Of a stretch of 54,124 nt of DNA, positions 25,804-47,007 are shown piece by piece. The notes below the pieces were generated by a model, which was given only the letters and a program-made list of their open reading frames with translations, was not told the origin of the DNA and did not search any database. Position 1 is the stretch's first letter. Each line of letters starts with the position of its first letter. This stretch comes from Bacteroidales bacterium (GTDB lineage Bacteria; Bacteroidota; Bacteroidia; Bacteroidales; UBA932), in contig JAFRRR010000124.1 of the NCBI GenBank assembly GCA_017428035.1, forward strand, positions 1-54,124. Direction: 5' to 3'. A program made the position numbers and the translations under genes.

Positions 25804-27186
25804 CTATCGCTTCTTCCAGAAGGCTTCTATCTCTTCCAGGGATTTGCCCGTGGTGTCAGGGACACATTTGTACATGATCACTAGATACGGGATGCACATA
25901 AATGCAAAGAGGAAGAATGTGCCGGCGGGGGTGAGAGTCTCCAACATCCAGGGGGTAAGCTGCCCTATCAGATACGTGCCTACCCACAGGGCGAAACCGG
26001 CTATGGACATCGCAAGACCGCGCACCCTGTTGGGATACATCTCGCTCAGCAGGACAAAGACCACCGCGCTGATGGAAATGGCGGTGCAGAATACATATAG
26101 CAGGAAGAATGTGAGCATAAACCAGTTGGGCAAATGTGTGAACGGCAGGAAATAGAGGCCAATCATAAGCAGGCAGACTATCATACCGCCTACACCCCAC
26201 CATACCAGCTGTTTGCGCCCCACTTTATCTATAATCAGCAGAGCTATGACGGTGGTGAGCATATTCACGATACCGACCAGCACGGTAGAGAACAGCGGGT
26301 CGGAGAATCCTGCATCGGAGAATATCTTGGGGCCATAATACAAGACTGCATTCACGCCCATAAACTGCCCCAGAATGGCAATTGCACTACCCACCAGCAC
26401 CGCTTTCAGTATCCCTGGCTCCAGCAAGGCCTTCCACTCGGTCTTGACCTCTCCGGCAATGGACTCCTTGGTCTCCGCCAGACCAGCCTCTGCTTCCGCT
26501 TCGCTGGAATAAATCCGCCGCATAATGGTCAGCGCCCTTGGATCCTGCCCTTTGACAATGAGCCATCTGGGACTCTCGGGAATGAAGAAAATCACTATCA
26601 GGAATAAAAGGTCAGGTATAGTCTCACATCCTAGCATACCGCGCCAGTACTCATTATTGAACATCCTGACGCCTAAAGCCGGGTCGGACGAATCCAGTGC
26701 CGCACCCTTCAAAATGAAGAAATTCACCAGATAAGCCAGCAGAAAGCCGATTGTGATGAACAATTGGTAGAAACTTACCATCGTTCCCCGGACCCTGGCC
26801 GGCGAGACCTCCGAGATGTAAATCGGCGATACTATCGACACTATACCGATGCCGAACCCACCGATAATACGGTAGATTACCAACTGTGCAAAATCGGCAC
26901 ACACGGCGCAGCCTATGGCCGACACCGAAAACATCAGCGCCGCAATGAGCATAGTCTTCTTGCGACCCAGAAAATCAGAAAGCATTCCGGCCACAAGCAC
27001 ACCGATGATAGAACCTATCAGGGCGCAGCCGACATACCAGCCTTCCATTCCCGTAGACAGGCCAAACTGGGTCTTGACTATTTCCGTGGTACCCGAAATG
27101 ACCGCCGTATCATAGCCGAAAAGGATTCCGCCGATGGCGGCGACCACCGACAGGAAAATCACATAACCACTTACTTTTTGTTTCAT
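25804..27186 (-). CDS. MFS sugar porter (sugar:H+ symporter family)
   Basis: 460 residues from ATG 27186; the longer frame would start with TTG at 27204, next to the preceding stop. Twelve membrane helices are evident. Family signatures are GGILFGYDTAVISG (helix 1), GRKKTMLIAA (loop 2-3), PESPRWLI (after helix 6) and KVGRKQLVWWG (loop 8-9). Such porters carry monosaccharides across the inner membrane. It is the last gene of the leftward locus-2 operon and probably imports the final monosaccharide released by that system. It is 18 bases from the FAD oxidoreductase gene. Confidence 0.93.
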   Translation of the reverse strand: MKQKVSGYVIFLSVVAAIGGILFGYDTAVISGTTEIVKTQFGLSTGMEGWYVGCALIGSIIGVLVAGMLSDFLGRKKTMLIAALMFSVSAIGCAVCADFAQLVIYRIIGGFGIGIVSIVSPIYISEVSPARVRGTMVSFYQLFITIGFLLAYLVNFFILKGAALDSSDPALGVRMFNNEYWRGMLGCETIPDLLFLIVIFFIPESPRWLIVKGQDPRALTIMRRIYSSEAEAEAGLAETKESIAGEVKTEWKALLEPGILKAVLVGSAIAILGQFMGVNAVLYYGPKIFSDAGFSDPLFSTVLVGIVNMLTTVIALLIIDKVGRKQLVWWGVGGMIVCLLMIGLYFLPFTHLPNWFMLTFFLLYVFCTAISISAVVFVLLSEMYPNRVRGLAMSIAGFALWVGTYLIGQLTPWMLETLTPAGTFFLFAFMCIPYLVIMYKCVPDTTGKSLEEIEAFWKKR

Positions 27187-27204
27187 GATATATCTTTTAT
27201 TCAA

Positions 27205-28704
27205 TTACTGAGGAAGATTGACCCATGTTTCATTTGCCCAACCGACTGTGCGGCCTATACCGCGGACCTCTCCCCTGATTCCTTGCTCCTGAAGTTCCCT
27301 AAACCCGGGCTCACCAGGTTTGATGTCAAGGAACGGCATCAGATAGCAGCTATGGTCCAGAAGCAGACTCTGAACCTCCGGGACAGACACCTCCGAAGGC
27401 TTTCTGCCACTACCTGCCGCTATTGCAGCAAGTGCCCCGGCAGCCTGTCCCAGGCCCATAATCACTGGTTGCAGACGCACCGAACCGTTCATCTCCCAAC
27501 TTACCGACACAGCCTTGTCTGCTATCAGAAAATCTTCTGTATCAATGGGGACTACTACACCCAGGGGAACGCTGAAAGAAGGTATCTTCCCAAACCATAG
27601 GTGTGCGAGTTCTTCTCTGTGGGGATTTTGCACGTGATGGTGATCTACCGGATAATCTCCCACGGCCACGGCACGGGTATACAATTCAAAATCATAAGGA
27701 TTGCGGGCAGCATCTACGGTCATTGTATCGCGGCCGGCCACCCTTGCCGCTTCCCTGAAATAGGGAAAAAACGGCAATCCGTCTTCTGTAGGATATACAT
27801 CGTCTGCAATGCCCAGGTCAGTATATCCCAACTCATGCTGCAGGAAATAGATAAAGCCAAGGGTACGGTTCTTCGCCTTCCGGTAGAGCCCTTCACGCTC
27901 CGCCGGCGTCATATCCAGATATTCGGCATAATAGTCATTGCCGTAGATCGGCCAGTTGAGCATCATATAGCCGTCCGGCAGGAGCCCGTATGAGAGCATC
28001 ATCTCCGGACTCCATAGCTGCTGGCCCAGCGGATTGTATCCGCCGGAGTTGTCGGCCAAAGGGTTGTCGCAGCAACTGCGGTAGTTCTCTATGTCATAGT
28101 CTTCCGGCATTTCCATCAGCACATCGTGGTCGTAGCGCTTTACTATCGCCACGTAAGTCATGTCCTGGACATATCGGCGGTCGTCCAGTTGCGCGGCCCC
28201 GACCATTGCAGCCACATCGCCCAGTTCTGTGCCGTCAATCAGAACTTTTGCCTTCACTGAAGAACCATCGGAAAGACGGAGTTTCCAACCGCGTGTTTTA
28301 TGCTCAGCCTCTACGAGAGACACTCCATATCTGACTTCTACTCCGGCCCCTTCTGCCATATTGGAGAGGATATCCGATCCTACCCTGGGATTGAAGAGAA
28401 TATTGCTGACCCAGCCTGATTTAAGATTGTCGTAGCCATCGTAACGGATCGCCAGAGAATCAGTGAACTCTCCGAAAATGCCTCCACGGAGTTTGTAATT
28501 ACCATCAATGGCACTGACTCCGGCGCTGGTAAGCATGCCGCCAAGCCACTTTGTCTTTTCAACGACAAGCACTTCTGAGCCGTCCCGGGCGGCTTCTATG
28601 GCGGCAGCACTCCCACCAGTGCCGCCACCAACGATAACAACGTCATAGTTACGGCAACACGAAATGGCAAATATGGCCAATAGTATTATAAAACTATGCC
28701 TCAT
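27205..28704 (-). CDS. Exported FAD-dependent oxidoreductase (FAD_oxidored type)
   Basis: 499 residues. A hydrophobic signal runs to Cys16/Cys17 (LLAIFAISCC). Only a few residues later the Rossmann strand begins: DVVIVGGGTGGSAAAIEAA, with GxGxxG at 26-31, followed by VEKTKWLGGMLTSAG. The C-terminal FAD-site strand has the form VSWEMNGSVRLQPVIMGLGQ with AAGALAAI after it. Homologues are common in Bacteroidales polysaccharide loci and are often mislabelled xanthan lyase. The family suggests redox chemistry on a small molecule or sugar; the substrate is unknown. Its ATG overlaps the stop of the DUF5009 gene (ATGA). If the cysteine is lipidated, the flavin domain sits directly at the membrane. 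Confidence 0.85.
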   Translation of the reverse strand: MRHSFIILLAIFAISCCRNYDVVIVGGGTGGSAAAIEAARDGSEVLVVEKTKWLGGMLTSAGVSAIDGNYKLRGGIFGEFTDSLAIRYDGYDNLKSGWVSNILFNPRVGSDILSNMAEGAGVEVRYGVSLVEAEHKTRGWKLRLSDGSSVKAKVLIDGTELGDVAAMVGAAQLDDRRYVQDMTYVAIVKRYDHDVLMEMPEDYDIENYRSCCDNPLADNSGGYNPLGQQLWSPEMMLSYGLLPDGYMMLNWPIYGNDYYAEYLDMTPAEREGLYRKAKNRTLGFIYFLQHELGYTDLGIADDVYPTEDGLPFFPYFREAARVAGRDTMTVDAARNPYDFELYTRAVAVGDYPVDHHHVQNPHREELAHLWFGKIPSFSVPLGVVVPIDTEDFLIADKAVSVSWEMNGSVRLQPVIMGLGQAAGALAAIAAGSGRKPSEVSVPEVQSLLLDHSCYLMPFLDIKPGEPGFRELQEQGIRGEVRGIGRTVGWANETWVNLPQ

Positions 28705-29852
28705 ATCTTAAGTTTGATACCTAATTTACCCAAGCCCCAGGCTGTGGCGATACAGAGTGCTGAAAACATTGCACACTTGGCCACTCCCACCCAGCCGGAC
28801 ATCCATTCTGGAATTGTGAGAGAGAAGAATATCCAGAAACAATAGAAGAAATACGGTAGCATATATACCGTCAGGGTTGCTTTACCCGCAGGGTTTATCG
28901 GCTTTGCCCAGCCGGTCAAACCATGTTTTTCCAGTGTGCGCAAGACAGTGTATAACGCTACCGAAATCGCAGATACATAAAGACACCAGGGAAGTGTGCC
29001 CAGCCCCTTGGAAGTAATCCACCATTTATGGGTAAATGCCCCCATCAAAGCAAGCGCCACCGCCACGGCGAGTCCTATGACCAGGCGGCACTTCTTTAGT
29101 TTCCGGTCCGCCATAACACAGAGCACACCGCCAAGTGCCATTATTATGCTATGACCGTTGCCCAGATGCAGGGCATCCGAGAAGTCGGCCACGAAGTTGC
29201 CGCCCAGAAGTTCTGTCCCGTCGCGCATCGGTGCCACGGAAATATTCACAAGGCAGAATACGACCCAGAGAACAGCCAGTATCCACCACCTGTTGCGACA
29301 TAGAATATATGCGAATGCGGCAAAGAGATACATCCAGCCGATCTGCCCTAGAATGCCCCACCAGCTAGCCCTGAAAAGACCTCCGTCAGGGCTTCTGAAG
29401 GCAATGGCGATACCGGTGAGAATCACCGCGCCTAATATGCGCAACGCCTTTTTGTATCGGAATCCTTCCGGGTAATTATTCCATACGAGAAAGAAACCTA
29501 TCACCATCAGCAGCCAGAATACTCCTTTGTTCCAGGCGATACCGGACTCCGAGTTGACAATGAACGAACCCATCAGAAGCAGCGCCAACGTACGGCTTAG
29601 GATATGCCGCAGGGTAGATTCAAATGACAGTCCTTTCTGGAAACGGCGCTCAAGCGCCAGCGGTACCGACATTCCCATTGCAAAGAGAAACATCGGATAG
29701 ATGATATCAGAAAGGCCCATACCGTCTTCCATAACGGCAAAGTGCTCCAGAAAGTGCGGCACATTGTGAATCGCCCAGAAGTCGTTGACACACACCATCA
29801 GGGCCACTGTCAGCCCTCTGAAGATGTCGATGGCAAGATTCCTTTTATCCAT
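28701..29852 (-). CDS. DUF5009 / HGSNAT-like membrane acyltransferase homologue
   Basis: 383 residues from ATG 29852, giving MDKRNLAIDIFRGLTVALMV, the typical opening of this family; the longer frame would overlap the preceding gene. About ten membrane helices follow, including FGMGLSDIIYPMFLFAMGMS-like text near residues 40-65. The family relates to heparan-alpha-glucosaminide N-acetyltransferase, which passes acetyl groups through the membrane to an amino sugar. In this setting it may acetylate glucosamine residues in the periplasm, but the acceptor is inferred. It overlaps the FAD gene by 4 bases and starts 2 bases after the GHL10 gene. Confidence 0.85.
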   Translation of the reverse strand: MDKRNLAIDIFRGLTVALMVCVNDFWAIHNVPHFLEHFAVMEDGMGLSDIIYPMFLFAMGMSVPLALERRFQKGLSFESTLRHILSRTLALLLMGSFIVNSESGIAWNKGVFWLLMVIGFFLVWNNYPEGFRYKKALRILGAVILTGIAIAFRSPDGGLFRASWWGILGQIGWMYLFAAFAYILCRNRWWILAVLWVVFCLVNISVAPMRDGTELLGGNFVADFSDALHLGNGHSIIMALGGVLCVMADRKLKKCRLVIGLAVAVALALMGAFTHKWWITSKGLGTLPWCLYVSAISVALYTVLRTLEKHGLTGWAKPINPAGKATLTVYMLPYFFYCFWIFFSLTIPEWMSGWVGVAKCAMFSALCIATAWGLGKLGIKLKI

Positions 29853-29854
29853 GG

Positions 29855-31141
29855 TTAATTCTTGAAAGCGTCCCAATAATCAAATGCGCGGATGTAACAC
29901 AAATCAAAAATAAAACAACCGTCGCATATTTCATCCATAGTACGTGCTATTTCCGGCAGTAAGTCTTTGCAGCCGCCGTTCTGGAATCCGGGCTGGTTGC
30001 CGATATCTGGGCCGGCCACAAACGGCACTTCGTCGCAGAGGCGCTTTGCACCCAATCTGGCGAATCCTTCCATGGTTTTTTCCACATCCCCGTGGATATT
30101 GTCAGCAGGGCAATAGGCCCCCAGCAGCATAAAGTCCACCAGATTGGCAAAGCCGGTAGCCTGGTATTCCGGAGTGGCCCATCGGAAGGTTTCTTCTTCT
30201 TGAGCCAGAGGATAATCAGGACTTGTCCAGTTCACACCGCTGCGGTAATACTCGCTGAACCAGGCTCCCACATAGACCCCCACCTTCAAGTCCTTACGGA
30301 CTGAGTGCATGGTTTCAACCGCATCTGCCACAAAGTCGTGGATCACCTTGCACCGGAAAGTGAGCCATTTATTTTCCAGCTCGTCGGGCTCCTGGTCAAG
30401 AAAAATATGACCGGGCTCCCGGAACACGGGCCACCGCTCGGGCTCCCTGCCCAGGTACTGTGCAAAAGCCTCCCGGGCCGCCTCGGTGTAGCCGGCATCA
30501 AGTGCGTAGTCGTCGTAGCGGCAGCGGTCCAGAACCACACCGTCCAGATCCTTGTACTCCGCAATGTCAGAGAGCATCTGCAGCAGGAAAGCCTGCACGT
30601 CTTTATTGGCGGGATCCAAAAAGCGCCCGCCAATGCTCGTGGAATCATCCAGATGGTTCAGTAGCCCGCCGGGTGTCATATCCACAGCAGCCCAGTCGCG
30701 CAGTTCAGGATAGTCATAAAGCATCCCGCGGCATCCAGCCTCGCAGCGGAAACCGCCCACCATGACATTCACTCCGGCAAGCACTTTAAGCCCTGCTGCA
30801 TGACCGGCATCTATGAATGCCTGCAGATAGTCAAAGTCGGCTTCACGGGGCACAAACTGCAGGCCGCCGGGACGCCAGAGCGCCTCTTCTTTAAGAGGAG
30901 GGGCGACACTGCTCTTGAACAATACATCGCCGCTTGTGGGTCGAACCTCAACCACCAGGTGTGTGAAGCCACCGTCTGCCAGACGAAGGCAATCTGCAGC
31001 AATGTTTTCCTGGCTATTGGCATATTGGTTGAAATTTGCCCCAACCTCTATCCATACCATACGGATCTTGCCCTTTGGCTTTGGCGAACATCCAATACAA
31101 AGAATCACCGAAGCTATTAGCAATAAATTGCGTAGTTTCAT
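29855..31141 (-). CDS. GHL10-type (DUF187-like) TIM-barrel lipoprotein, copy 2
   Basis: 428 residues with Cys18 lipoprotein signal (SVILCIGCSPK). The barrel opens MVWIEVGANFNQYANSQENI, then VVEVRPTSGDVLFKS, and contains LDGVVLDRCRYDD and VGVYVGAWFSEYYRSGVNWT. The family is the glycosyl hydrolase-like 10 group (YngK-like), for which few activities are known. It is closely similar to the 33223 product along its whole length, with the same motif order. It follows a terminator by 9 bases, so its expression probably depends on read-through from the upstream genes. Confidence 0.85.
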   Translation of the reverse strand: MKLRNLLLIASVILCIGCSPKPKGKIRMVWIEVGANFNQYANSQENIAADCLRLADGGFTHLVVEVRPTSGDVLFKSSVAPPLKEEALWRPGGLQFVPREADFDYLQAFIDAGHAAGLKVLAGVNVMVGGFRCEAGCRGMLYDYPELRDWAAVDMTPGGLLNHLDDSTSIGGRFLDPANKDVQAFLLQMLSDIAEYKDLDGVVLDRCRYDDYALDAGYTEAAREAFAQYLGREPERWPVFREPGHIFLDQEPDELENKWLTFRCKVIHDFVADAVETMHSVRKDLKVGVYVGAWFSEYYRSGVNWTSPDYPLAQEEETFRWATPEYQATGFANLVDFMLLGAYCPADNIHGDVEKTMEGFARLGAKRLCDEVPFVAGPDIGNQPGFQNGGCKDLLPEIARTMDEICDGCFIFDLCYIRAFDYWDAFKN

Positions 31142-31149
31142 AATGATTA

Positions 31150-31212: not shown

Positions 31213-33198
31213 CTAAGGAATAATCAGATTGAAGCGGGCAAGTGTAGGACGGCCGGAGTTGATGGCGTAAAGCTCAAGCACTCCGTCACCAGGACGCAGG
31301 AGCACATCGGAGCCTGTCTGACCGCTGAAGTCGTTCCCTTCGGTAATAATCCAGTCCGCAGGCTTGATATCAAGCAGCATCACGGGGTTGGCAGCATCGG
31401 TCACGTCAAGAACGAAGATGTCGCCGTTGCCGGAGTAGTTGAAATGATAACCCTGGGTCATAGCCATGATGCGCTTGCCGTTGTAATCAACAATAGACAT
31501 GCTGTTCTGGCTCTCGTTACCGCCGTCGCCGATACCGGTGATGACGGGTGTCCATACATAAGGGGTAACCCAGTTGGGCTCGGTGGCATTTGCAAGGAGC
31601 TGTACAGCCCTTGTTCCGTCATAGCCGCGGAAGTATATACCGTCGGCGGCTGTTGTGCCCAAAGCGACGCAGGCACCGTTCACGGGGCTCCATACAGTAC
31701 CCGTTGCGGGACCACGGTTCTGACCACCGGTTGCCTGGACATAGTAATTGTCAAGCGATACGGCTTTCTCTTTGATCTCCCAGCCTGCCCAGTAAGCGGG
31801 ATCTCCGCCTACGACTGCGGTAATCATGGCAGCGGTTGAAATATCACCGCGTACGCGCCAGTTGCCGATTGTTCCGCCAAAGTCAGAAGTCTGGTCAAAG
31901 AGTTTGATGGGATTTGAGTTGACATCAGAGGCATAGTATACGGAATATGTGGTTCCTGACGCCATAGCGGTGTGGTCAGCAACAATCACGTTGCCGGCAT
32001 CATCGCTGCAGATGGATGCGGGAACGACGTTGGTCCAGGTGATCGCTTTATAGTATGCACCGTTGTTGGGGCCCATTGCGTGAACCTTTTCGCCGTCGGA
32101 AACTATCAGGGCAGGTCCGCCTGCAGTCTTGACAGCCAATCGGTTGTAAGCGGCGGCAATACCCACATCGCTGAGTTTCTTGTTCCAGATCATCTCAAAA
32201 GCCGCGCCCTCTACTTTAACACCGTCCTGAACATAGTGGCCGGTTCCGCCATATGCACCGTTCTTGCTGCCGTCGTGGTTGAAGCACTCGATGTAGAAGT
32301 AGTGCTCGCGGGAGAAATTGGAGGTGTTCTCGTCAAATACCAGGTAAATTTCAGCTTTGTCCTTGTCGTAGCTCAGATGTACCCATCCAAGGTCATCGGT
32401 CTGAACGCTTGCGCCGGCCTCGTCGCTCCAATAAGAAAAGTAGGGTCTCCAGTCAAGATTGGTCTCCACGGGAATGGTGATTGAGATACCTTCGCGCGGG
32501 ATGATGGTAGGATCGCCGTAGGCGCTCCATTGGATGCCTGCCCACTCGCCCTGCAATTCGAAATAGGGCTCGAAGGGAGCCTGGGTAATCTTGATTGTCT
32601 TGGAAAGAGTACCGTCTGTGATAGTGATGTTGGCAACCCTGTTGGGAGCCTCTTCGGTAGCTTCTTCATAGTTGGGCTCAACGGCCAGGCTTACCGTGGT
32701 CTTTGCCATAGCTTTGGTACCGGCTACGGATACCCAGTCGATAGCCTCGGGAATGGAAACGCTGTACTCAACGTTAGAATTAACCTCAACATCGACTACG
32801 CCACCCTCCTGGGGAACCTCATACTCTAGCACGTCCACCTCAAGGGCGTCTTTCTGGCCCTGGGTTACAGTGACCGTCTTGGTAATGGCGTCAGCCTTGA
32901 TGGTGACTTTTGCAGTACGATTGTCGGTGTTGTCGTTTTTAAGTGCAGAAGCCTTAACCGTGAAATCGGCACCGCCCTTGACACCCTCACCGCTGGTAGG
33001 GGAAATCGTGAGCCAGTCGGCATTCGACTCTGCCGTCCAGGGAACATTTGTGTTGAACTTGATGCTCACATTGTCGCCTGCAACGGACACTGTCACCGCT
33101 TCGTCGGTATTCAGTGTCAGGAAGGGATCTTCTTTCTTCTGACAGGAGATTGCCAGCAATACGAGCAAAAGAAGCGCCAAAAGTTTAAAATGTTTCAT
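31213..33198 (-). CDS. BACON-domain surface lipoprotein with propeller-like C-terminus
   Basis: 661 residues with Cys19 lipoprotein signal (LLLVLLAISCQKKED). Two BACON domains follow: about 28-112 (FNTNVPWTAESNADWLTISP) and about 115-208 (VEYSVSIPEAIDWVSV, ending IKITQAP). These Ig-like modules bind glycan or act as spacers. A middle domain of about 110 residues leads into a C-terminal part of about 330 residues with repeated strand patterns (ICSDDAGNVIVADHTA, IVDYNGKRIMAMTQGYHFNY, GDIFVLDVTDAANPVMLLDI) suggesting a beta propeller. No catalytic motif is evident. It is the last gene before the internal terminator and is probably a surface glycan-binding protein. Confidence 0.8.
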   Translation of the reverse strand: MKHFKLLALLLLVLLAISCQKKEDPFLTLNTDEAVTVSVAGDNVSIKFNTNVPWTAESNADWLTISPTSGEGVKGGADFTVKASALKNDNTDNRTAKVTIKADAITKTVTVTQGQKDALEVDVLEYEVPQEGGVVDVEVNSNVEYSVSIPEAIDWVSVAGTKAMAKTTVSLAVEPNYEEATEEAPNRVANITITDGTLSKTIKITQAPFEPYFELQGEWAGIQWSAYGDPTIIPREGISITIPVETNLDWRPYFSYWSDEAGASVQTDDLGWVHLSYDKDKAEIYLVFDENTSNFSREHYFYIECFNHDGSKNGAYGGTGHYVQDGVKVEGAAFEMIWNKKLSDVGIAAAYNRLAVKTAGGPALIVSDGEKVHAMGPNNGAYYKAITWTNVVPASICSDDAGNVIVADHTAMASGTTYSVYYASDVNSNPIKLFDQTSDFGGTIGNWRVRGDISTAAMITAVVGGDPAYWAGWEIKEKAVSLDNYYVQATGGQNRGPATGTVWSPVNGACVALGTTAADGIYFRGYDGTRAVQLLANATEPNWVTPYVWTPVITGIGDGGNESQNSMSIVDYNGKRIMAMTQGYHFNYSGNGDIFVLDVTDAANPVMLLDIKPADWIITEGNDFSGQTGSDVLLRPGDGVLELYAINSGRPTLARFNLIIP

Positions 33199-33222: not shown

Positions 33223-34608
33223 TTAAAGTGTTTCTAAATATTCATCTATAGCTTTTTCAAAAGCATCCCAATAATTATACATCCTGATATGGCATAGGTC
33301 AAAGATGAACAGGCCGCCGGCCGATGACATCATGGTATTTACTATATCAGGTATCACATCTTCCCGATGTCCATTGGTAAAGCCACTGCCGTTGCCGATA
33401 TCGGGACCTGCGGCAAAGGAAACATCGCCGCACAGGCGTTTGGCGCCAAGCTTTGCGAATCCTTCCATCGTCCACTCGGTACTGCCGTGGACATTGTCCG
33501 CTCCGGCATAAGCACCCAGCAGGATGAAGTCCAGTAAATCGGCGAAGCCTGTTTTCTGATAAGCAGTATTTGCCCACTTGTATGAAGATTCGTTTTTTGA
33601 AAGGGCGTAATTGGAACTGGTCCAATTTACACCGCTTCTGTAATATTCAGAGAACCAGGCCCCTACATATATTCCAAAACGTACATTAGGAGAAGTCTGG
33701 TGAATTTTGTCTGCAGCTTTCGCAACAAAATCGTGTATCGTTTTGCAGCGGAACGTAAGCCAGTTTCGCTGCAACGTGTTGGGGCTGTCAAGGAATACCT
33801 GACCTTGTGGAATCATTGGCCATGAAGAAGGCGCTGTGCCAAGGTATTTGGTGAAAGCCTCCTTTGCAGCATCAGTATATCCTGCATCCAAATTGTTGTC
33901 ATCGTAGCGACAGCGATCCAGAACAATTCCGTCCAGCCCTTCGTAGGCAGCAAGTTCTCCCAGCAGAGTAAGCAGGAATTCCTGCACATCAGGGTTGGCC
34001 GGATCAAGGAATCTGGGGCCTGTATCGGGGTCATCCATAGCATTTGTGAGTCCGTCGGGAAGATTGTCCACGGAACACCACGAGCGAAGGGACGGCTTGT
34101 CATATACCATCCCTATATCACCAATTGAAGTGTGATAACCACCGACCATGGTATTGATGGCGGCATTAACCCTCAAGCCTGCCTTGTGTCCGGCGGCAAT
34201 GAATGTGGCCAGATAATCAAATGATGCCGTCCGCTCCACCCAACGGTAGCGCCCGTTGACCCAGGCGGAAAGTTTCTTGCAGGCAGGAGCCACCTCCGAT
34301 GCAAAAAGCACGTCCCCGCTCGTGGGGCGTACATCCACGAGGATATCCGTGAATCCCATCTTGGCAATGCGTTCGCAGTCTTCGGCGATATACTCCGCAT
34401 CGTTGGCATAATACTGGAAATTGGCCGCCGCGTCAATCCAGATATAACGCGAACCTCCCTTGATGTCGGGGTTGAAAGGCTCAGGGTCCGGATCATCCTC
34501 TTCCTGCTTGTTCCACTCGTCGCGCCATTTGAAGGAGTTGTCTTCCTTCTCGCATGACAGCGGGAAAAGCAGCAGGAATAACATCAATATAAGTACTGGG
34601 CGTTTCAT
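33223..34608 (-). CDS. GHL10-type (DUF187-like) TIM-barrel lipoprotein, copy 1
   Basis: 461 residues with Cys19 lipoprotein signal (FLLLFPLSCEKED). The sequence YIWIDAAANFQYYANDAEYI, VDVRPTSGDVLFAS, LDGIVLDRCRYDD and IYVGAWFSEYYRSGVNWTSS follows the glycosyl hydrolase-like 10 pattern. It is a paralogue of the 29855 product; the two differ mainly by an acidic linker after the signal here. The conserved acidic strand ends (VDVRP, LDRCRYDD) probably line the active site. It is 1 base downstream of the phosphodiester-glycosidase gene, a tight operon junction. Confidence 0.85.
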   Translation of the reverse strand: MKRPVLILMLFLLLFPLSCEKEDNSFKWRDEWNKQEEDDPDPEPFNPDIKGGSRYIWIDAAANFQYYANDAEYIAEDCERIAKMGFTDILVDVRPTSGDVLFASEVAPACKKLSAWVNGRYRWVERTASFDYLATFIAAGHKAGLRVNAAINTMVGGYHTSIGDIGMVYDKPSLRSWCSVDNLPDGLTNAMDDPDTGPRFLDPANPDVQEFLLTLLGELAAYEGLDGIVLDRCRYDDNNLDAGYTDAAKEAFTKYLGTAPSSWPMIPQGQVFLDSPNTLQRNWLTFRCKTIHDFVAKAADKIHQTSPNVRFGIYVGAWFSEYYRSGVNWTSSNYALSKNESSYKWANTAYQKTGFADLLDFILLGAYAGADNVHGSTEWTMEGFAKLGAKRLCGDVSFAAGPDIGNGSGFTNGHREDVIPDIVNTMMSSAGGLFIFDLCHIRMYNYWDAFEKAIDEYLETL

Positions 34609-37392: not shown

Positions 37393-37394
37393 AA

Positions 37395-39054: not shown

Positions 39055-42000
39055 TTATAAGGTTATTGTAATGCCGCCCATCAGGTTTCGCTGCTGGGGA
39101 TAGTATCCGTTGTTGACGCCGGGAGATTCGGGGTCGATGCCCTCCGGCAGGCCGTCGAGGGTGAAGATGTTGTTACCCTCCACGAAGATGCGCAAGGCCT
39201 CTACGCTGAACTTGCGGGTAAAGGACTGCGGCAGGGTATAGCCCAGCCTGGCGGTCTTAAGACGGACATATTTGCCGTCTTTCCACCAGAAACTGGAGTT
39301 GAGTCCGTTGTGGCCGCCGTGACCGGTGTTGCCCAGGGTAAGGCGGGGGAATATACCGTCGGGATTGTCCAGGCTGTAGGCATTCTCTACAAGGAACAGC
39401 GGGGAGTTGCCGCCCTCCTTGAAGGTGCGGGTCCAAACCGTGTTGTCGTCGTTGCCGTTGTAGTAGTTACCCAGCATGGAAACCTGGAACAGGGCGCCGC
39501 CTGTAAACTGCAGGTTCATATCGAAACCGTTCCAGGTGGCATTCACGTTAAGGCCGAACGTAAGCTCGGGGCGGTTGCTCTTGCCAAAGATACCGCGGTC
39601 GCCGGTCCAGTCAATCACGCCGTCTCCGTTAAGGTCAACATACTTGATATCGCCGATATTCGGGCGGGAATTGCCGTACCATGCAGAGTTGTCTATCTCC
39701 TCTTCCGTACGGTAGAGGCCCTCTGCCAGCCAGCCGTCTATTGCCCCGTAGGTGGTGCCGGTGACTTTCTGCCACTCGGCTATGTTGGGGTTGTCGTTGT
39801 ATTTCAGCCAGCGGGTCTTGGAGTATGTCACTGTCCCTGCAAGTTCATAGAAGAACGGCTTGCCGCCCATATCGAAATGGTTGCGGTGGGTTATAAGCAC
39901 GTCTATACCCTTGCTGTCTATGGCGTTTCCATTTACATATGTCGGGAAGTATCCGCCCATGGAATCGGGATGGCCACCGCCGTTATACGAGAGGATATCG
40001 TAGGTATAATTGTAGAACGCATCGATTTCGCCGCCCAGCAGGCCGTTCCACAGGGAGAAATCGAAACCGGCATTGTAGGACAGGGTCTTTTCCCAGGTCA
40101 GATCTTTATTGGGAATGCCCGATGTGTAATACGAAGGAGTGCCACTGCCGCCCGTATAAACCACTTTGCCTCCGGCGGCATACTTGCTGAGGAACATATA
40201 CGGACTCACGCCATCGTTACCCAACAGACCGACAGAGGCCCTCAGCTTGAGATTGTCAAGAGTGGTGAAGCCCTGCATGAATTCTTCCTTTGAAATATTC
40301 CAGCCCACTGAAGCAGATGGGAAAAAGCCCCAGCGGGTATTCATCATTCCGGCAAATTTGTAAGAGCCGTCGTATCGCCCGGTAAACTCCGCAAGATACT
40401 TTTCATCGTAATTATAACGGATCCTGCCCACGAAGCCCGCGCTGCGGGAGGCATCACTGCCGCCGGCAACCGGTGCAGCAGTAGGGGTACCGTTGTCCAG
40501 CTCGGGCAACAATGCGAACGGCAGGTTCCGGACATACGCGCTCATGTTGTTATACTGGAAGTCACGCACTTCTGCCAGTGCCAGGGCTTCCAGATTGTGC
40601 TTGCCGAACGAATTGATATATGAAAGGCTTGCCTGGCCGGTAATAGACTGGGAATAAGCTGCCCCTTCGCCCAGCTTTACGCCGTTGGCAGAGCCGTTGA
40701 CATCCACCATAGGAGTGGTCCAGCCCCAGCTGCCGTCGGCATCCTTGCGGCGGACCATGACATAATAGGGGGTGTCCAGGTTCTTGTTGTAGGTATTGCG
40801 CCAGTCATAAGAGCCGCTGACCTTTGCCTGCAGCCCCTTAACCCCGGGAATATCCCAGGTAAGGCCGGCATTGAGGGTGCCGGTGAATCCGTTCGTCTTC
40901 TTGGAGCCGGACTGATACAGGGCCGCCAGAGGGCTGTACGGGTAAGCCTGATTGGTGGCTATGGAACCGGTGTAATAACCGTCGTACATCTCGGGCAGGT
41001 AGGGATGGATACCTATAACCTGGTGCGCTACGGAGAACCAGCCGACCTCATAGGTGGCGCCGGACTCTGAGCCGTCGGAGCCTCCAGAGAGGAACCTGGG
41101 GGTCTCGCGGCGGGATACCACACCGCTCAGACCCACATTGAAAAGCAGGTTCTTTGCAAGGCGTGTCTCTATATTGGTGCGCACATTATATCTGTAGAAA
41201 TTATAGCCTTCCACATTACCTTTCTGGCCCAGATAACCGGCGGATACGAAGTATTTGGTGTTTTCGCTGCCGCCCTGCACGGTGATATTGTGCTTTGACG
41301 TGCGGCCGGTGCCGAACACTTTCTTTATATAATCCACATTGTCCCAGCCGTCCGTGGGGTCGCCGTTCAGCATCGCCTCCACATTGGCAAGGGTGAAATA
41401 TGGCTCATATTCAGCCTCGGAGGCGATGGCCCCGCTGGCCAACTGGTCCATCTCCTGAGCCAGATTGTAATAATAGGCAAACTGGGGGCCGTTCATGAAC
41501 CTTGGGAAGTTGGCGTTCATGGATACACCCATCGAACCGTTATAGGTGATGGTGGGGGTTCCCTTGGCTCCGCGCCGGGTGGTGATGATAATCACGCCGC
41601 CGGCCGCCTTCAGGCCGTACACGGCAGCCGAAGCGCCATCCTTGAGCACCGAGACGCTCTCAATGTCGGCCGGATCGATATCGTTGATGTTATCCACCGG
41701 GAAGCCGTCCACCACATAGGCCGCTCCGTAAACCGAACCTCGGATACGCAGCGACGCCTGGTCAAGGCCGGGTTCGCCGGATTCCTGTACGGATGATATG
41801 CCGGGCAATTTGCCGGCAAGCACCTGGGAGACGTTGGTGGCCGGCGCCTTCAAAAGTTCCTCGCCCTTGATGGCCGACACGGCGGCAGTCAAGGTCTCTT
41901 TCTTGACTGTACCATAGCCCACGACTACCGTCCCTTCAAGGAAGATGGAGTCCTCTTTCATGGTGACATTCAAGGGGGTACGCCCGTCCCAGCTGCGGTC

Positions 42001-42246
42001 CACCGTAGCAAGGCCAAGACAGAAAAATTCAATCACATCTCCTTCGGAAGCCCTGAGCGAATATGTTCCATCGGCCCCCGTGACGGTGCCGTTATCGGTC
42101 CCTTTGACCATAACGGTGACGCCTGCAAGGGGCTGGCCATCCGAATCGATGACTTTGCCCGAGATTCTTGACTGGGCAAAAGCGGGCGCCGTGGCAAGCA
42201 ACAAAGCCGCCAAAAGCAGCGCGGGGAATCGGAAAATGTGCTTCAT
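39055..42246 (-). CDS. SusC/RagA TonB-dependent transporter (no STN domain)
   Basis: 1063 residues from ATG 42246; a TTG one codon earlier is not needed. The signal peptide (1-25) leads straight into the carboxypeptidase-regulatory-like domain (SRISGKVIDSDGQPLAGVTV, about 26-98), then the plug (TVVVGYGTVKKETLTAAVSA; VVDGFPVDNINDIDP) and the barrel. There is no STN domain, so unlike the locus-1 SusC it should not signal to a FecR. That fits control by the ROK repressor next door. It imports the oligosaccharide captured by SusD. Confidence 0.95.
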   Translation of the reverse strand: MKHIFRFPALLLAALLLATAPAFAQSRISGKVIDSDGQPLAGVTVMVKGTDNGTVTGADGTYSLRASEGDVIEFFCLGLATVDRSWDGRTPLNVTMKEDSIFLEGTVVVGYGTVKKETLTAAVSAIKGEELLKAPATNVSQVLAGKLPGISSVQESGEPGLDQASLRIRGSVYGAAYVVDGFPVDNINDIDPADIESVSVLKDGASAAVYGLKAAGGVIIITTRRGAKGTPTITYNGSMGVSMNANFPRFMNGPQFAYYYNLAQEMDQLASGAIASEAEYEPYFTLANVEAMLNGDPTDGWDNVDYIKKVFGTGRTSKHNITVQGGSENTKYFVSAGYLGQKGNVEGYNFYRYNVRTNIETRLAKNLLFNVGLSGVVSRRETPRFLSGGSDGSESGATYEVGWFSVAHQVIGIHPYLPEMYDGYYTGSIATNQAYPYSPLAALYQSGSKKTNGFTGTLNAGLTWDIPGVKGLQAKVSGSYDWRNTYNKNLDTPYYVMVRRKDADGSWGWTTPMVDVNGSANGVKLGEGAAYSQSITGQASLSYINSFGKHNLEALALAEVRDFQYNNMSAYVRNLPFALLPELDNGTPTAAPVAGGSDASRSAGFVGRIRYNYDEKYLAEFTGRYDGSYKFAGMMNTRWGFFPSASVGWNISKEEFMQGFTTLDNLKLRASVGLLGNDGVSPYMFLSKYAAGGKVVYTGGSGTPSYYTSGIPNKDLTWEKTLSYNAGFDFSLWNGLLGGEIDAFYNYTYDILSYNGGGHPDSMGGYFPTYVNGNAIDSKGIDVLITHRNHFDMGGKPFFYELAGTVTYSKTRWLKYNDNPNIAEWQKVTGTTYGAIDGWLAEGLYRTEEEIDNSAWYGNSRPNIGDIKYVDLNGDGVIDWTGDRGIFGKSNRPELTFGLNVNATWNGFDMNLQFTGGALFQVSMLGNYYNGNDDNTVWTRTFKEGGNSPLFLVENAYSLDNPDGIFPRLTLGNTGHGGHNGLNSSFWWKDGKYVRLKTARLGYTLPQSFTRKFSVEALRIFVEGNNIFTLDGLPEGIDPESPGVNNGYYPQQRNLMGGITITL

Positions 42247-42264
42247 CAATAGATATCTTTATAA

Positions 42265-43446
42265 TTATTTGTTTGCTATCTGCGAAAGTATATTGCCTAT
42301 CTGATATAGGCCGCGGGGGACGTGGAAACAACCTTTCCATTTGCCGCCTTTAAGAGGTAGAAGAACTTCTCCACGACGGTTCAGATAGCCGAACCACTCG
42401 GGATAATCGGGATCTTTGAAACGGGTCCACAGATAATCGTCAAGTTTGAGAAACCAATCCAGGGCCTTTTCATTTCCCGTGAGCTGATATCCCTTGATCA
42501 TGGTTATGGCGCTCTCGATGTGGACCCACCAGAGTTTCTGGTCCCACTCCAGCTCTTGTGTGGGATAGCCCTTGCGGTCCATAAAATAGAACACTCCGCC
42601 GTACTCTTTATCCCAGCCATAGTCTATCACCCTCAAGGCAATCTCCATGCTCTTGTCTATGATATCCTGGCGGTGAAGGCGCAGTCCCAGGTTCATCATG
42701 AACCACAGTGCCTCCAAATCGTGCCCGGGATTAACCTTGCGGCCCTCGAAACAATCAATCAGGGATCCGTCTGGGGCGAGATTCTCTACCATAACCCCGA
42801 GATCAGGCTGATAGAATACATCAAACACTTCGTGCAGCGCCTCGTCTATGGTTTTGTCCAGCAGATGCTTGTCCTCTATGATAGGCTCCACCTCCAGGGC
42901 CATGTTGCATATAATCATAGGCAGGGCGAAGTCTTTCATCGGACGGGTACCCGGAACAGCCTTGCTCCATACCCCCTTGGGATTGGAACGGCGCTCCAGA
43001 ATCCTGCGGAATGTCTTGCGCGCAACTTCGGCATAATATTCACTGTCAGTGGCCACGGCCAGCTGGGCGAATGCCATGCAGGCAAAGGTGTTGGAGAATA
43101 TGTTATAGGGCTGTATTATCGGCCGGCCTTCCCTTGTGAGGGAGAAATAGAAATCGTAATTGCCGTCATGGCCGTACTTGTCGAGGAATTTTGCCCCCTG
43201 CTCTGCGCAGGCAAGCCAGGCGGGATTCTTCTCGACTTTGTTGTAGAGCATGGCGAACATCCAGACTTCCCTGCCCTGCAGCCACACGAACTTGTCGGTG
43301 TCGAAAACACTGCCGTCACGGTTCAGGCAAGTGAAATAGCCTCCGTACTCCAAGTCTTGAGACCTCTCCAGCCAGAAAGGCAAGACACTGCCATACAGCT
43401 CTTTATGATATTTATTCGCCAGTTGTTCAAAATCTTTTCCTGTCAT
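42265..43446 (-). CDS. AGE-family N-acylglucosamine 2-epimerase
   Basis: 393 residues, no signal peptide, (alpha/alpha)6 barrel. Active-site motifs of the AGE/RnBP family are present: VNPGHDLEALWFMMN (His242, Glu245), KLWWVHIESAI (305-313) and KGCFHVPRGL (His375). The GCFHVPR form is that of GlcNAc 2-epimerases (renin-binding protein) and differs from the cellobiose 2-epimerase form as I know it. It therefore probably interconverts GlcNAc and ManNAc in the cytoplasm, though Man/Glc-type activities cannot be excluded. It is first in the leftward operon, 18 bases before SusC. Confidence 0.88.
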   Translation of the reverse strand: MTGKDFEQLANKYHKELYGSVLPFWLERSQDLEYGGYFTCLNRDGSVFDTDKFVWLQGREVWMFAMLYNKVEKNPAWLACAEQGAKFLDKYGHDGNYDFYFSLTREGRPIIQPYNIFSNTFACMAFAQLAVATDSEYYAEVARKTFRRILERRSNPKGVWSKAVPGTRPMKDFALPMIICNMALEVEPIIEDKHLLDKTIDEALHEVFDVFYQPDLGVMVENLAPDGSLIDCFEGRKVNPGHDLEALWFMMNLGLRLHRQDIIDKSMEIALRVIDYGWDKEYGGVFYFMDRKGYPTQELEWDQKLWWVHIESAITMIKGYQLTGNEKALDWFLKLDDYLWTRFKDPDYPEWFGYLNRRGEVLLPLKGGKWKGCFHVPRGLYQIGNILSQIANK

Positions 43447-43487
43447 GTTATCTAGCTTTTGTCAAATATTTTCAAATTACACTGCAA

Positions 43488-43518: not shown

Positions 43519-43519
43519 G

Positions 43520-43542
43520 GTTTTTAACAAAATGTTAAAAAC
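43520..43542. promoter_or_regulatory. 23-bp palindrome, candidate ROK operator
   Basis: GTTTTTAACA-AAA-TGTTAAAAAC is a perfect inverted repeat of 10 bases per arm. It abuts the -33 box of the leftward promoter (1 base away) and lies 4 bases before the -33 region of the rightward promoter. A repressor bound here could block both. ROK repressors such as NagC and Mlc use AT-rich palindromes, and the ROK gene is 54 bases away. Confidence 0.65.
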
Positions 43543-43546
43543 AACA

Positions 43547-43578: not shown

Positions 43579-43595
43579 TGTGACAAATAACTTCT

Positions 43596-44792
43596 ATGAC
43601 CACATTTCTCGACGACATCAACGGCCGCTATGCAACGGAGGAGCGGACAATCATAAACCTGTGCCTTAAGAACACGGGGTTCTCGCTGGCCGACCTGGCT
43701 AAAGAACTTGACACCAGCATTCCGAAAATATCACGTATCGTGGGGGAGCTTGTCGATATGGGCTACCTGGCCGATCTGGGCAAGCAGGAATCCTCCGCCG
43801 GCAGGCGCCCCAGCATCTACGGCCTGAACCCGGCAGCGGGATACTTCGTGGGTGTCGATGTACGCCAGGACGGGCTTTCCATTGCCGTCACGGATTTCCC
43901 GGGGAGGGTGGTTCACTTTGAGCACGATGTCCCCTACCGCCTGCAGAACAATGAAGAGTCCATACGGGAAATGTGCGCGACAGTAAAAGAAAGGCTCAAG
44001 AAAGCCCGTATCGACACCGGCAAAGTCCGCTCATACGGAGTAAACCTGACCGGCCGCGTCAATCATGAAACCGGATACAGTTATTCATATTTCATAAGCG
44101 AAGAGAAACCCATCCGTAACCTTCTGGAGGAATACCTGGGCAAGACCGTTTCGGTGGAGAACGACTCCCACGGAATGGCTTATGGCGAGTATATGAGCGG
44201 CATCGCCGACGGTGCCAGCAACATCCTTTTCTTGAATGTGGGCTGGGGCCTCGGCATGGGAATGGTGCTTGACGGCAAATTGTTCTACGGCAAGTCGGGG
44301 TTCTCCGGCGAGGTGGGCCACTTCCCCCTGCTGGACAACCATCAGATATGCCGTTGCGGAAAGATCGGATGCCTGGAAACAGGCGCTTCCGGGCAGGCGC
44401 TCCACAGGCTCGTCAAAGAGAGGATCGAAAGCGGCCAGCCTTCGATTTTGGCCGACACCTGCAAGAAGGGCAAGGAATTATCCCTGAACGCCATCCTGGA
44501 CGCGATTCAAAAGGAAGATGTTACTGCAATAGAGTGTATTGAGGAGGTCGGCGCCACACTGGGCCGCGCCGTTGCCGGACTGATAAACATCTTCAACCCC
44601 GATTCGGTAATCATAGGCGGCCGCCTGTCGGTGGCGGAGCGCTACCTGATGCCGCCGCTCAAGATTGCCGTGAACAAACTGTCGCTGAATCTTGTAAACA
44701 ACGACACCGTGATCAAGGCCTCCCGCCTGGGGAAAGCCGCCGGTGCAATCGGGGCCAGCCTGCTGGCCAAAAGCAGAATGTTGAACAGTTAG
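43596..44792 (+). CDS. ROK-family transcriptional regulator
   Basis: 398 residues. An N-terminal winged helix-turn-helix (about 16-62, FSLADLAKELDTSIPKISRI) is followed by a ROK sugar-binding domain. The zinc site is complete: His242 (GEVGHFPL) and CRCGKIGC with Cys252, Cys254 and Cys259. The catalytic-type Asp190 (VENDSHGMAYGE) and Glu239 are present. However, the usual N-terminal phosphate loop DxGGT is replaced by VDVRQDG (87-93), so it is probably a regulator and not a kinase. The inducer may be the amino sugar handled by the adjacent epimerase. It is first of three rightward genes and probably autoregulates. Confidence 0.9.
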   Translation: MTTFLDDINGRYATEERTIINLCLKNTGFSLADLAKELDTSIPKISRIVGELVDMGYLADLGKQESSAGRRPSIYGLNPAAGYFVGVDVRQDGLSIAVTDFPGRVVHFEHDVPYRLQNNEESIREMCATVKERLKKARIDTGKVRSYGVNLTGRVNHETGYSYSYFISEEKPIRNLLEEYLGKTVSVENDSHGMAYGEYMSGIADGASNILFLNVGWGLGMGMVLDGKLFYGKSGFSGEVGHFPLLDNHQICRCGKIGCLETGASGQALHRLVKERIESGQPSILADTCKKGKELSLNAILDAIQKEDVTAIECIEEVGATLGRAVAGLINIFNPDSVIIGGRLSVAERYLMPPLKIAVNKLSLNLVNNDTVIKASRLGKAAGAIGASLLAKSRMLNS

Positions 44793-44803
44793 CCATAAGC
44801 AAT

Positions 44804-45907
44804 ATGAGAAAACGGATATCCTTGCTCCTTGCTTTTTTGATGCCGCTGGCCGCCGCGGCCCAATCCGGCATCCTGGATTTCCATCCGGCCGATGAGGTCG
44901 TGCCACTTCTGGAAGCGGCACGTGCGCCTTCCGTAGTGTGGGGAAAAGGGAAATCGGCTCCGGCACTTACCCTGCTCCATTGTTCGGACATCCACGGCAG
45001 TGCCGAGAACCTCGAGCGCATAGTCGAATTCAGACAAGCCTACAGCCGGTGGATAGAAGACGCCATCCACGCGGGAGACGCCGTGTATTGTTACTGGGAC
45101 GACCCCAATCCCTGGGACGAGGTCCCTTCTGCAAGAGGCATACTCAATACAGTGGGCAACCATGACTGCTGGAAGGGGCATCTGGTATGGGCGCAGACAT
45201 CATGGCCGTACGATGCCACGGAAGACGAAGCGTACCAGCTCCTTTTTGTGGGGAAGGACAAGTCCCGCCCGTTCTTCAAAGAGTGGGACGTGGTCAAGCC
45301 AGGCGGCGTATGCTACTATTACAAAGACTACGCGCCCAACGGGATACGCCTCATCGTCCTGGATTGCATGCATTATACGCCCTTGCAGCACGAATGGTTC
45401 TGCAATGTGCTGGAGGAGGCCCGGCTGAAAGGCCTCACGGTCGTTTGTGCGCAGCACTATCCTCCGCAGAACGGTATGGATTTGATTGAAAGCGGCTTTA
45501 CCGACCGCGACTATGCAATTTCGGCGGTTCCCGCCCCTGCCGCCGGAGAGCAGATGGAAAGGATGCACGATGATGCCTTCAGCGCCGTGGACGGCTTCAT
45601 CGATGACGGCGGAACTTTCGTATGCTGGCTCAGCGGCCATACGCACCTGGATTTTATCGGCCATGTAAGCGGCCACCAAAGGCAACTTATGGTCATTGCC
45701 GACAAGGCCGGAGCCAAGGATGACTATATGCAGGAGGCCCGGCCGATAGGCACCATCTTCCAGGATTCTTTCAATCTGGTCACTGTGAATCCCGGACGCC
45801 ATACACTTGTCGTCCAGCGCATAGGATGCACCAGGGACCAGTATATGCGCTCAAAGAGACTATTTTGCTACGACTACACCACGGGAAACATACTCGTCAA
45901 CGAATAA
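44804..45907 (+). CDS. Exported calcineurin-like metallophosphoesterase
   Basis: 367 residues with a Sec signal (MRKRISLLLAFLMPLAAAAQ). All metal-binding motifs are visible: DIH at 62-64 (HCSDIHGSAEN), GD at 91-92 (HAGDAVYC), GNHD at 118-121, a lone His in the middle (QHYPPQNGMD), and GHTH near the C-terminus (LSGHTHLDFIGH). Two metals in such a site hydrolyse phosphomonoesters or phosphodiesters. It starts 11 bases after the ROK gene and 8 bases before the next. Being exported and co-regulated with a phosphodiester glycosidase, it may remove phosphate from the glycan or its products; this is inference. Confidence 0.88.
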   Translation: MRKRISLLLAFLMPLAAAAQSGILDFHPADEVVPLLEAARAPSVVWGKGKSAPALTLLHCSDIHGSAENLERIVEFRQAYSRWIEDAIHAGDAVYCYWDDPNPWDEVPSARGILNTVGNHDCWKGHLVWAQTSWPYDATEDEAYQLLFVGKDKSRPFFKEWDVVKPGGVCYYYKDYAPNGIRLIVLDCMHYTPLQHEWFCNVLEEARLKGLTVVCAQHYPPQNGMDLIESGFTDRDYAISAVPAPAAGEQMERMHDDAFSAVDGFIDDGGTFVCWLSGHTHLDFIGHVSGHQRQLMVIADKAGAKDDYMQEARPIGTIFQDSFNLVTVNPGRHTLVVQRIGCTRDQYMRSKRLFCYDYTTGNILVNE

Positions 45908-45915
45908 CACACAAT

Positions 45916-47007
45916 ATGGAAAACCGCCGTTCATTTCTGAAAAAAGGAGCCATGGTTGCAATGGGTGCGCCGCTCCTTGCCTCATCCTGCACCCCCTCAG
46001 CCGAAAAGACCGACAAGTGGGGCATAGAGCCCGACCCTTCGCTCAAATCCGAACTTCTGGTTCCAAAAGGGAACGCCCTGCCGATAACCGGCACATTCCT
46101 GGATGAAATATCGCACGACATCCCCCATCAGAACTGGGGCGAAAAAGAATGGGACCGCGATTTCCGATATATGAAGGACATCGGCATTGACACTGTGATA
46201 GACATCCGCTGCGGCTACCGCAAGTTCATAACCTACCCTTCTCCCTATCTCCTGAAAAAAGGATGCTATATGCCCTCGGTCGATTTGATTGACATGTTCT
46301 GCCGGCTGGCACAGAAATACGACATGAAGTTTATGCTTGGACTTTACGACAGTGGCAAATACTGGGACACCGGCGACATGAGCTACGAGGTGGAATCCAA
46401 CAAATATGTAATTGACGAAATCTGGCAGATGTACGGCAGCAAATACAAGAGTTTTGGCGGCTGGTACATCTCCGGCGAAATATCCAGAGCCACCAAGGGC
46501 GCCATTGAATCATTCCGCACGATGGGTCGTCAATGCAAAGAGGTTTCAGAAGGACTGCCCACCTTTATATCTCCCTGGATAGACGGCAAGAAGGCCGTGG
46601 ATGCCGCCGGCGGTAATCTTACCAAAGAGCAGGCGGTAGGCATAGAGCAGCATGAGCGGGAGTGGAACGAAATTTTTGACGGCATTCATGATTATGTGGA
46701 TGCCTGCGCCTTCCAGGACGGCCATATCGACTATGACGAACTGGACGCTTTCTTCTCTGTCAATAAGAAACTTGCCGACCGTTACGGTATGCAATGCTGG
46801 ACCAATGCCGAGTCATTTGACCGCGATATGCCCATCCGCTTCTTCCCCATCAAGTTTGACAAACTCCGCCTGAAACTAGAGGCGGCCAAGCGCTGCGGCT
46901 ACGACAAGGCTATAACCTTTGAGTTCTCACACTTTATGAGCCCGCAGAGCGCATATCTGCAGGCAGGGCATCTCTACGAGAGGTATCGCGAATACTTTGA
47001 GTTGTAA
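45916..47007 (+). CDS. DUF4434 TIM-barrel lipoprotein with twin-arginine signal
   Basis: 363 residues from ATG 45916; a longer frame would run back into the metallophosphoesterase gene. The signal MENRRSFLKKGAMVAMGAPL then LASSC25 combines a twin-arginine motif (RRSFLKK) with a lipobox-like cysteine. The body reads as a DUF4434 barrel: GTFLDEISHDIPHQNWGEKE, a strand DTVIDIRCGYR, FMLGLYDSG, and FGGWYISGEIS with a candidate acidic catalytic residue. It is the last gene of the ROK operon. Substrate is unknown. Tat export would imply folding, perhaps with a metal, before export. Confidence 0.8.
   Translation: MENRRSFLKKGAMVAMGAPLLASSCTPSAEKTDKWGIEPDPSLKSELLVPKGNALPITGTFLDEISHDIPHQNWGEKEWDRDFRYMKDIGIDTVIDIRCGYRKFITYPSPYLLKKGCYMPSVDLIDMFCRLAQKYDMKFMLGLYDSGKYWDTGDMSYEVESNKYVIDEIWQMYGSKYKSFGGWYISGEISRATKGAIESFRTMGRQCKEVSEGLPTFISPWIDGKKAVDAAGGNLTKEQAVGIEQHEREWNEIFDGIHDYVDACAFQDGHIDYDELDAFFSVNKKLADRYGMQCWTNAESFDRDMPIRFFPIKFDKLRLKLEAAKRCGYDKAITFEFSHFMSPQSAYLQAGHLYERYREYFEL

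Follow-up and report, generated by a model that had tools for sequence, protein, structure and literature searches.

The 54,124 bp stretch of Bacteroidales contig JAFRRR010000124.1 analysed here (assembly GCA_017428035.1; "the window") carries at 25804-47007 a divergent locus in which the genes for a SusC-like transporter and a SusD-like lipoprotein are adjacent, with carbohydrate genes and a regulator alongside, and which is thus a polysaccharide utilization locus (PUL) of the SusC/D type. Its genes were identified by Pfam and NCBIfam profile searches (Table 1). Within the family of this bacterium the constant core of the locus is formed by GHL10 proteins and an N-acylglucosamine 2-epimerase (AGE), and the NAGPA-type phosphodiester glycosidase is optional. 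We tentatively read the locus, with a likelihood somewhat short of even, as a PUL controlled by a ROK-family regulator and directed at an N-acetylhexosamine glycan that would bear phosphate in the lineages having NAGPA. Gene content, conservation, family membership, folds and export-type signals are the observations from which we infer the reactions, their order and the substrate.

The core was recognized in 149 genomes from the same family as that of the window. Some of these are rather incomplete; the genome of the window is 96.5% complete. Presence thresholds were placed at gaps in the E-values after these had been viewed (GHL10, 1e-36 then 3e-15; NAGPA, 5e-27 then 5e-17; AGE, 2e-75, then fragments, then 3e-20). 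An AGE-type epimerase occurs in 30 genomes, a window-like GHL10 protein in 23 and a window-type NAGPA (E 4.8e-27 or better) in 12. The sets are nested, all NAGPA genomes lying inside the GHL10 set and all GHL10 genomes inside the AGE set. Thus GHL10 is found in 12 of 12 NAGPA genomes versus 11 of 137 others (p 8.5e-12) and AGE in 23 of 23 GHL10 genomes versus 7 of 126 others (p 3e-21), with p-values that ignore the relatedness of the genomes. The epimerase is of the window's type in 19 of the 23 (at least 59% identity, one being a fragment) and of a second type, with 33-37% identity, in the other four (G001, G002, G044, G107). On shared contigs, NAGPA and GHL10 are at most 5.4 kb apart (11 of 12 genomes; the twelfth pair is on separate contigs) and AGE and GHL10 at most 7.7 kb (16 of 23; separate contigs in 7). 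The flanks of 30 NAGPA places, up to 1.5 kb, served as an internal control (L002-L031). Ten of the 12 close relatives of the window protein lie beside GHL10, DUF5018, FAD or BACON genes, one of the other two being near a contig end and the other having only SusC. None of the 18 weaker relatives has any of these four neighbours; one has a weak SusD match. The search for the gene set in other genomes, which the earlier note had proposed as a check, thus finds that it recurs as a unit.

Close relatives were collected by scanning named contigs with an alignment of GHL10b, one of the two GHL10 proteins; the best 80 of 353 relatives gave 68 loci, so that the rates below are those of close relatives and the 149-genome counts are the fairer test of co-occurrence. 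Their titles name Bacteroidales, Bacteroidia, Bacteroidaceae or Candidatus Cryptobacteroides. A ruminant is named in 25 titles, 20 more have a RUG label, presumably denoting rumen genomes, and three refer to horse faeces. SusC, SusD or DUF5018 are present in 52 of the 68 loci; seven are taken up below, and most of the remaining nine are short or incomplete. In the 35 loci that reach 18 kb, DUF5018 occurs in 34, SusD in 33, NAGPA and BACON in 32 each, SusC in 31, FAD and DUF5009 in 29 each, and a metallophosphoesterase, belonging to different subfamilies, in 25. The porter is found in 17, AGE in at least 21, DUF4434 in at least 11 and ROK in at least 10; for AGE, ROK and DUF4434 these are lower bounds because in many loci the fetched span drops that end. 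In more distant relatives NAGPA is often missing and an SSS symporter can take the place of the porter (L032, L036, L038, L039); esterase-type genes occur in L032, L035, L041 and L048. Two GH97 genes and a MetallophosN/C gene adjoin the GHL10-AGE-DUF4434 locus of L041 (2-6682), where the GH97 genes may indicate alpha-glycosyl side groups on the substrate. The unlabelled open reading frames (ORFs) formed 18 clusters common to at least three loci. One of these is DUF4434, one is a further weak GHL10 gene (L060, L083, L093; 32.8 bits) and one, in four loci, is DUF5009-like as judged by its start; no other glycoside hydrolase (GH) was seen among the 18, only some of which were run through Pfam. 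Some contigs appear under two labels (L044/L054, L045/L102, L046/L055, L048/L110), and named and unnamed sets were not summed.

The epimerase is the first gene of its operon. It passes the curated NCBI cut-off for N-acylglucosamine 2-epimerase, in agreement with the GlcNAc-type (N-acetylglucosamine) 2-epimerase named in the earlier note. Cellobiose epimerase and mannose isomerase were rejected as identities, with scores far below their cut-offs. As the epimerase is a fixed partner, conversion between N-acetylmannosamine (ManNAc) and GlcNAc is probably part of the pathway. Its clade is no guide to the substrate, because G219 has a separate sialic-type operon with an epimerase 62% identical to that of the window.

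The NAGPA-type protein passes the PF09992 cut-off and keeps the fold and the conserved active-site motifs, so that by sequence it is a clear member of the phosphodiester glycosidase family, as had been claimed. It differs from vertebrate NAGPA (the "uncovering enzyme") in its first approximately 66 residues, which do not align, and has a lipoprotein-like start. The exported metallophosphoesterase is likewise borne out by a Metallophos score above cut-off, and its metal-ligand motifs are invariant in an alignment of 23 sequences. In L035, a single open frame encodes a GHL10-DUF4985 protein joined to MetallophosN/C. This open frame, together with the recurrence of phosphoesterases in relatives, suggests that the system also has to remove phosphate.

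That no classical polysaccharide-degrading GH is present is true by Pfam, but GHL10 is itself a published peptidoglycan-cleaving family, to which the peptidoglycan lytic transglycosylase Cwp19 of Clostridioides difficile belongs (PMC6016235). The window protein has a GHL10 domain and a predicted Cwp19-like fold: the nearest fold to the model of GHL10b is Cwp19, from the same Pfam family, followed by PgaB, a GlcNAc-polymer enzyme. The controls with a GHL10 match include E. coli, and we take DigH to be YddW, a GHL10 protein. DigH has been called a muramidase (PMC11870482). Going by the modelled fold, the two barrels point to peptidoglycan-like amino-sugar chains. Cwp19 and the window GHL10 share only 17% identity, and the latter carries DUF4985 and is encoded in a PUL, whereas Cwp19 has wall-binding CWB2 repeats (PMC6016235). 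Relatives of GHL10a, the second GHL10 protein, also occur elsewhere. In L094 (6544-7845 and 9014-10345) one lies outside any PUL near a gene for Amidase_3, an N-acetylmuramoyl-L-alanine amidase, which fits a wall-related role. In L096 (2357-8299) one immediately precedes an alpha-2-macroglobulin-like protein (bMG10), and large proteins related to the latter are also found in the GHL10a-bearing L098 and L104.

The AGE operon and the divergent ROK operon are separated by a gap with the palindrome GTTTTTAAC-N5-GTTAAAAAC. With up to one mismatch allowed, the genome has a single site with its core, TTTTTAAY-N5-GTTAAAAA, and 0.00 are expected in the window. We compared 17 AGE-ROK gaps, of which 16 are distinct after removal of L044, a duplicate of L054. 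A palindrome with this core is present in 12 of the 16; the other four (L060, L081, L087, L118) have no perfect palindrome of at least 7. Outside the core, the pairs covary on both sides (G/C, TA/TA, C/G, AC/GT). As several of the palindromes, taken singly, are not unusual in shuffled sequence (71 of 300 at most), it is the shared core that constitutes the evidence. The pattern fits one local repressor governing both transcripts. The best NCBIfam match of the ROK regulator is NagC with 166.2 bits, below its cut-off of 650.

In the pathway that we favour, SusC and SusD, with the DUF5018 and BACON lipoproteins, would bind and import fragments, the two GHL10 lipoproteins would cut the amino-sugar chain, NAGPA would remove alpha-GlcNAc-1-phosphodiesters and the metallophosphoesterase would clear the leftover phosphate. 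The porter would take up GlcNAc and ManNAc, and the epimerase would convert ManNAc to GlcNAc for NagB-type catabolism. NagB scores above its cut-off in all six genomes tested.

As the best single guess from the gene families involved, the substrate may be the Gram-positive wall, either peptidoglycan strands with beta-ManNAc-(1-4)-alpha-GlcNAc-1-P linkage units or ManNAc-GlcNAc wall polymers. Wall teichoic acids, and certain other polymers of the wall, are described as having this disaccharide phosphate as their linkage unit (PMC7831098). PhoD, a teichoic acid-degrading enzyme, is calcineurin-like, and proteins in which NAGPA is fused to a calcineurin-like phosphoesterase are mentioned as well (PMC11188070). 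The wall is the leading guess because the linkage unit holds both the bond after which NAGPA is named and the sugar of the epimerase, and because of PhoD and these fusions. The GHL10 barrels, which had played no part in the earlier choice of substrate, point to peptidoglycan-like chains, and the emphasis shifts from phosphomannan to a bacterial wall. GlcNAc-1-P-mannan, one of the substrates considered in the earlier note, is not known to contain ManNAc and would not need the epimerase, so that it is not favoured. The more general proposal of a phosphoglycan with an amino sugar is plausible, given the recurring gene set with NAGPA and epimerase, but with NAGPA optional the emphasis moves to GHL10 and the epimerase. 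A specific version, in which GHL10 would cut peptidoglycan, NAGPA would unlink the GlcNAc-alpha-1-P bond between wall teichoic acid and N-acetylmuramic acid (MurNAc), phosphate would be cleared and the ManNAc of the linkage unit rescued, seems unlikely to us.

Several observations count against our interpretation. Window-type NAGPA is missing in 11 of the 23 GHL10 genomes, so that the core can do without a phosphodiester, and the phosphodiester step therefore looks like an addition made in certain lineages. Second copies of close-type NAGPA (G086:C12, L049:9463-11211; G032:C19, L051:10173-11414) stand by themselves, with no GHL10, SusC/D, AGE or other gene of the locus within 13-16 kb, and seven of the 68 loci (L070, L073, L094, L096, L098, L103, L104) have GHL10 without NAGPA, FAD, AGE or phosphoesterase. 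A GHL10 fold, as modelled, is no proof of lytic activity, and the epimerase could act in the opposite direction. MurQ scores 298.2 bits in the window's genome, against a cut-off of 302, and is absent from all three locus-bearing congeners; MurNAc catabolism was therefore rejected as a constant part of the system. NamZ adjoins the locus in G010, but as it occurs in all 12 genomes searched this is weak and was not used as evidence. The absence of NAGPA from so many GHL10 genomes also speaks for a neutral N-acetylhexosamine polymer, on which the NAGPA-fold protein would be an ordinary alpha-glycosidase and the phosphoesterase a general phosphate scavenger, as does the frequency of NAGPA-like proteins outside this clade (some match in 78 of the 149 genomes). 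We consider this somewhat unlikely in view of the recurring phosphoesterase subfamilies and of the one in a GHL10 open frame. Some other phosphoglycan with GlcNAc or ManNAc, such as a capsule, an exopolysaccharide or a protozoal phosphoglycan, would explain NAGPA, phosphoesterase and epimerase equally well; it leaves unexplained why Cwp19-like GHL10 enzymes are the constant core, and we regard it as less probable still.

Host or dietary N-glycans, sialylated or phosphorylated, would account for the epimerase through the ManNAc of sialic acid and for NAGPA and phosphoesterase through GlcNAc-1-P-mannose groups. G206 speaks for them and against our reading: there the locus is continuous with genes for a sialidase and a SASA esterase and with a DHDPS/NanA-superfamily gene beside a major facilitator superfamily (MFS) gene; this contig (G206:C5; L131:1050-12460, with L035) also holds the second epimerase type and two DUF4434 matches. 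The G206 gene set fits a sialoglycan there. A sialidase-like gene is also found in L119, but in only this one of the 68 named loci. Sialic-acid (nan) loci of Bacteroidales share epimerase and MFS transporter with the window locus. In contrast to them, the window's genome has no BNR_2 sialidase match (three genomes of the same genus lack one as well; BNR_2 was the only sialidase family searched), and a DapA-like gene is its sole lyase candidate. The DHDPS/NanA superfamily has one match each in this genome and the three congeners; that in the window's genome adjoins LysC- and DapB-like ORFs (judged by eye) and, given this lysine-gene context, is probably DapA. The cut-off of the NanA model TIGR00683 is passed by none of 12 genomes, sialic-type G206 included, and is thus not discriminating. 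As it has no BNR_2 sialidase match and only the DapA-like superfamily gene, a nan locus was rejected for the window's genome, of which 96.5% is present. As GHL10, moreover, points to peptidoglycan-type chains, we hold an N-glycan substrate to be improbable.

The literature bears on both questions. BT0451-BT0461 of Bacteroides thetaiotaomicron has been called an N-glycan PUL, a further point for N-glycans and against our interpretation, and an N-glycan set with sialidase is reported beside BT0446-BT0454 (PMC7531118). By annotation, BT0446-BT0454 comprises DUF5009, a family 10 GH-like protein, a calcineurin-like phosphoesterase, a second family 10 GH-like protein, SusD, SusC and a sugar porter (PMC10434189). 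The passage concerned names no NAGPA and no epimerase, leaves BT0450 unlisted and gives three names for BT0451-BT0454; these genes appear in a published expression table, that part of which states no substrate (PMC10434189). The earlier statement that no locus with this set has been described holds in so far as no PUL of this composition is described among the matches listed in the open-access literature, but, with BT0446-BT0454 being similarly composed, the gene set is not wholly undescribed.

Every gene class named in the earlier note was found inside the locus, but two lipoproteins, DUF5018 and BACON, had been missed. Transcription on the minus strand runs from AGE through SusC, SusD, DUF5018, NAGPA, GHL10b, BACON, GHL10a, DUF5009 and FAD_oxidored to the sugar porter; ROK, metallophosphoesterase and DUF4434 are encoded divergently on the plus strand. 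Judged by their families, the BACON protein is a probable surface glycan-binding protein and the DUF5018 protein a probable one of the SusE/F-like kind; the C-terminal half of the former and DUF5018 match one common region of L013. The porter is likely an inner-membrane monosaccharide importer. The protein termed HGSNAT-like has a DUF5009 match and ten hydrophobic peaks, but no HGSNAT Pfam model matched; its proposed part in N-acetylation is conjectural. The exported FAD enzyme was rightly named: the window protein has a lipoprotein-like start, unusual for such an enzyme, and so do 34 of 41 relatives under a crude criterion that also picks up membrane proteins (18 of 26 MFS, only 1 of 27 AGE). 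The start of DUF4434 is most likely 45916 rather than 45826; its structural match, PDB 4h41, is presumably B. thetaiotaomicron BT_0435.

Table 1. Features of the locus in JAFRRR010000124.1, with strand and supporting matches.
Feature	Position	Strand	Evidence
Sugar porter (MFS, SP family)	25804-27204	-	Pfam Sugar_tr 387.5 bits; NCBIfam TIGR00879 above cut-off
FAD_oxidored lipoprotein	27205-28704	-	Pfam PF12831 270.2 bits; lipoprotein-like start
DUF5009 polytopic membrane protein, acyltransferase-like	28701-29876	-	PF16401 29.8 bits, cut-off 25; 10 hydrophobic peaks
GHL10a: GHL10 barrel and DUF4985, lipoprotein-like start	29855-31141	-	Pfam; 57% identity with GHL10b
BACON-domain lipoprotein	31213-33198	-	Pfam BACON
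GHL10b: GHL10 barrel and DUF4985, lipoprotein-like start	33223-34608	-	Pfam
NAGPA-type phosphodiester glycosidase, lipoprotein-like start	34610-35665	-	Pfam PF09992 94.2 bits, cut-off 25
DUF5018 lipoprotein	35650-37404	-	PF16410 361.8 bits
SusD-like lipoprotein	37395-39041	-	SusD_RagB 188.5 bits
SusC-like TonB-dependent transporter	39055-42249	-	TIGR04056 848.3 bits, above cut-off
AGE, N-acyl-D-glucosamine 2-epimerase	42265-43446	-	NF052547 647.5 bits, cut-off 600; PDB 6f04 E 4.4e-146
Palindromic operator candidate between divergent transcripts	43520-43542	.	core TTTTTAAY-N5-GTTAAAAA
ROK-family regulator	43596-44792	+	ROK 184.2 bits
Exported calcineurin-like metallophosphoesterase	44804-45907	+	Metallophos 29.4 bits, cut-off 21.5
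DUF4434 protein, Tat/lipoprotein-like start	45916-47007	+	PF14488 278.1 bits (on ORF 45826-47007); PDB 4h41 E 4e-194

The locus lies between genes of the purine pathway, identified by Pfam as AIRS-type and FGAR-AT, at 21487-22698 and 48631-52302. By eye, the ORFs at 19622-21465 resemble a pair of FecR-type anti-sigma and ECF sigma factors, near another SusC-sized ORF (16159-19560), and the ORF at 24415-24822 resembles a large-conductance mechanosensitive channel (MscL). A 434-aa ORF at 52290-53594 has no Pfam match and is overlapped on the opposite strand by a 417-aa ORF (52344-53597).

If our reading is right, it would assign a function to several orphan families found together in these loci (GHL10-DUF4985, DUF5018, DUF4434, DUF5009 and the exported FAD_oxidored), and would show how gut Bacteroidales can recycle amino-sugar glycans that bear phosphate, perhaps those in the cell walls of their neighbours. 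Even with the substrate left aside, the question can be put to a direct test, thanks to the linkage of epimerase and GHL10 and to the single operator candidate. Were the version centred on the joint between teichoic acid and peptidoglycan true, rumen Bacteroidales would feed on the walls of Gram-positive neighbours.

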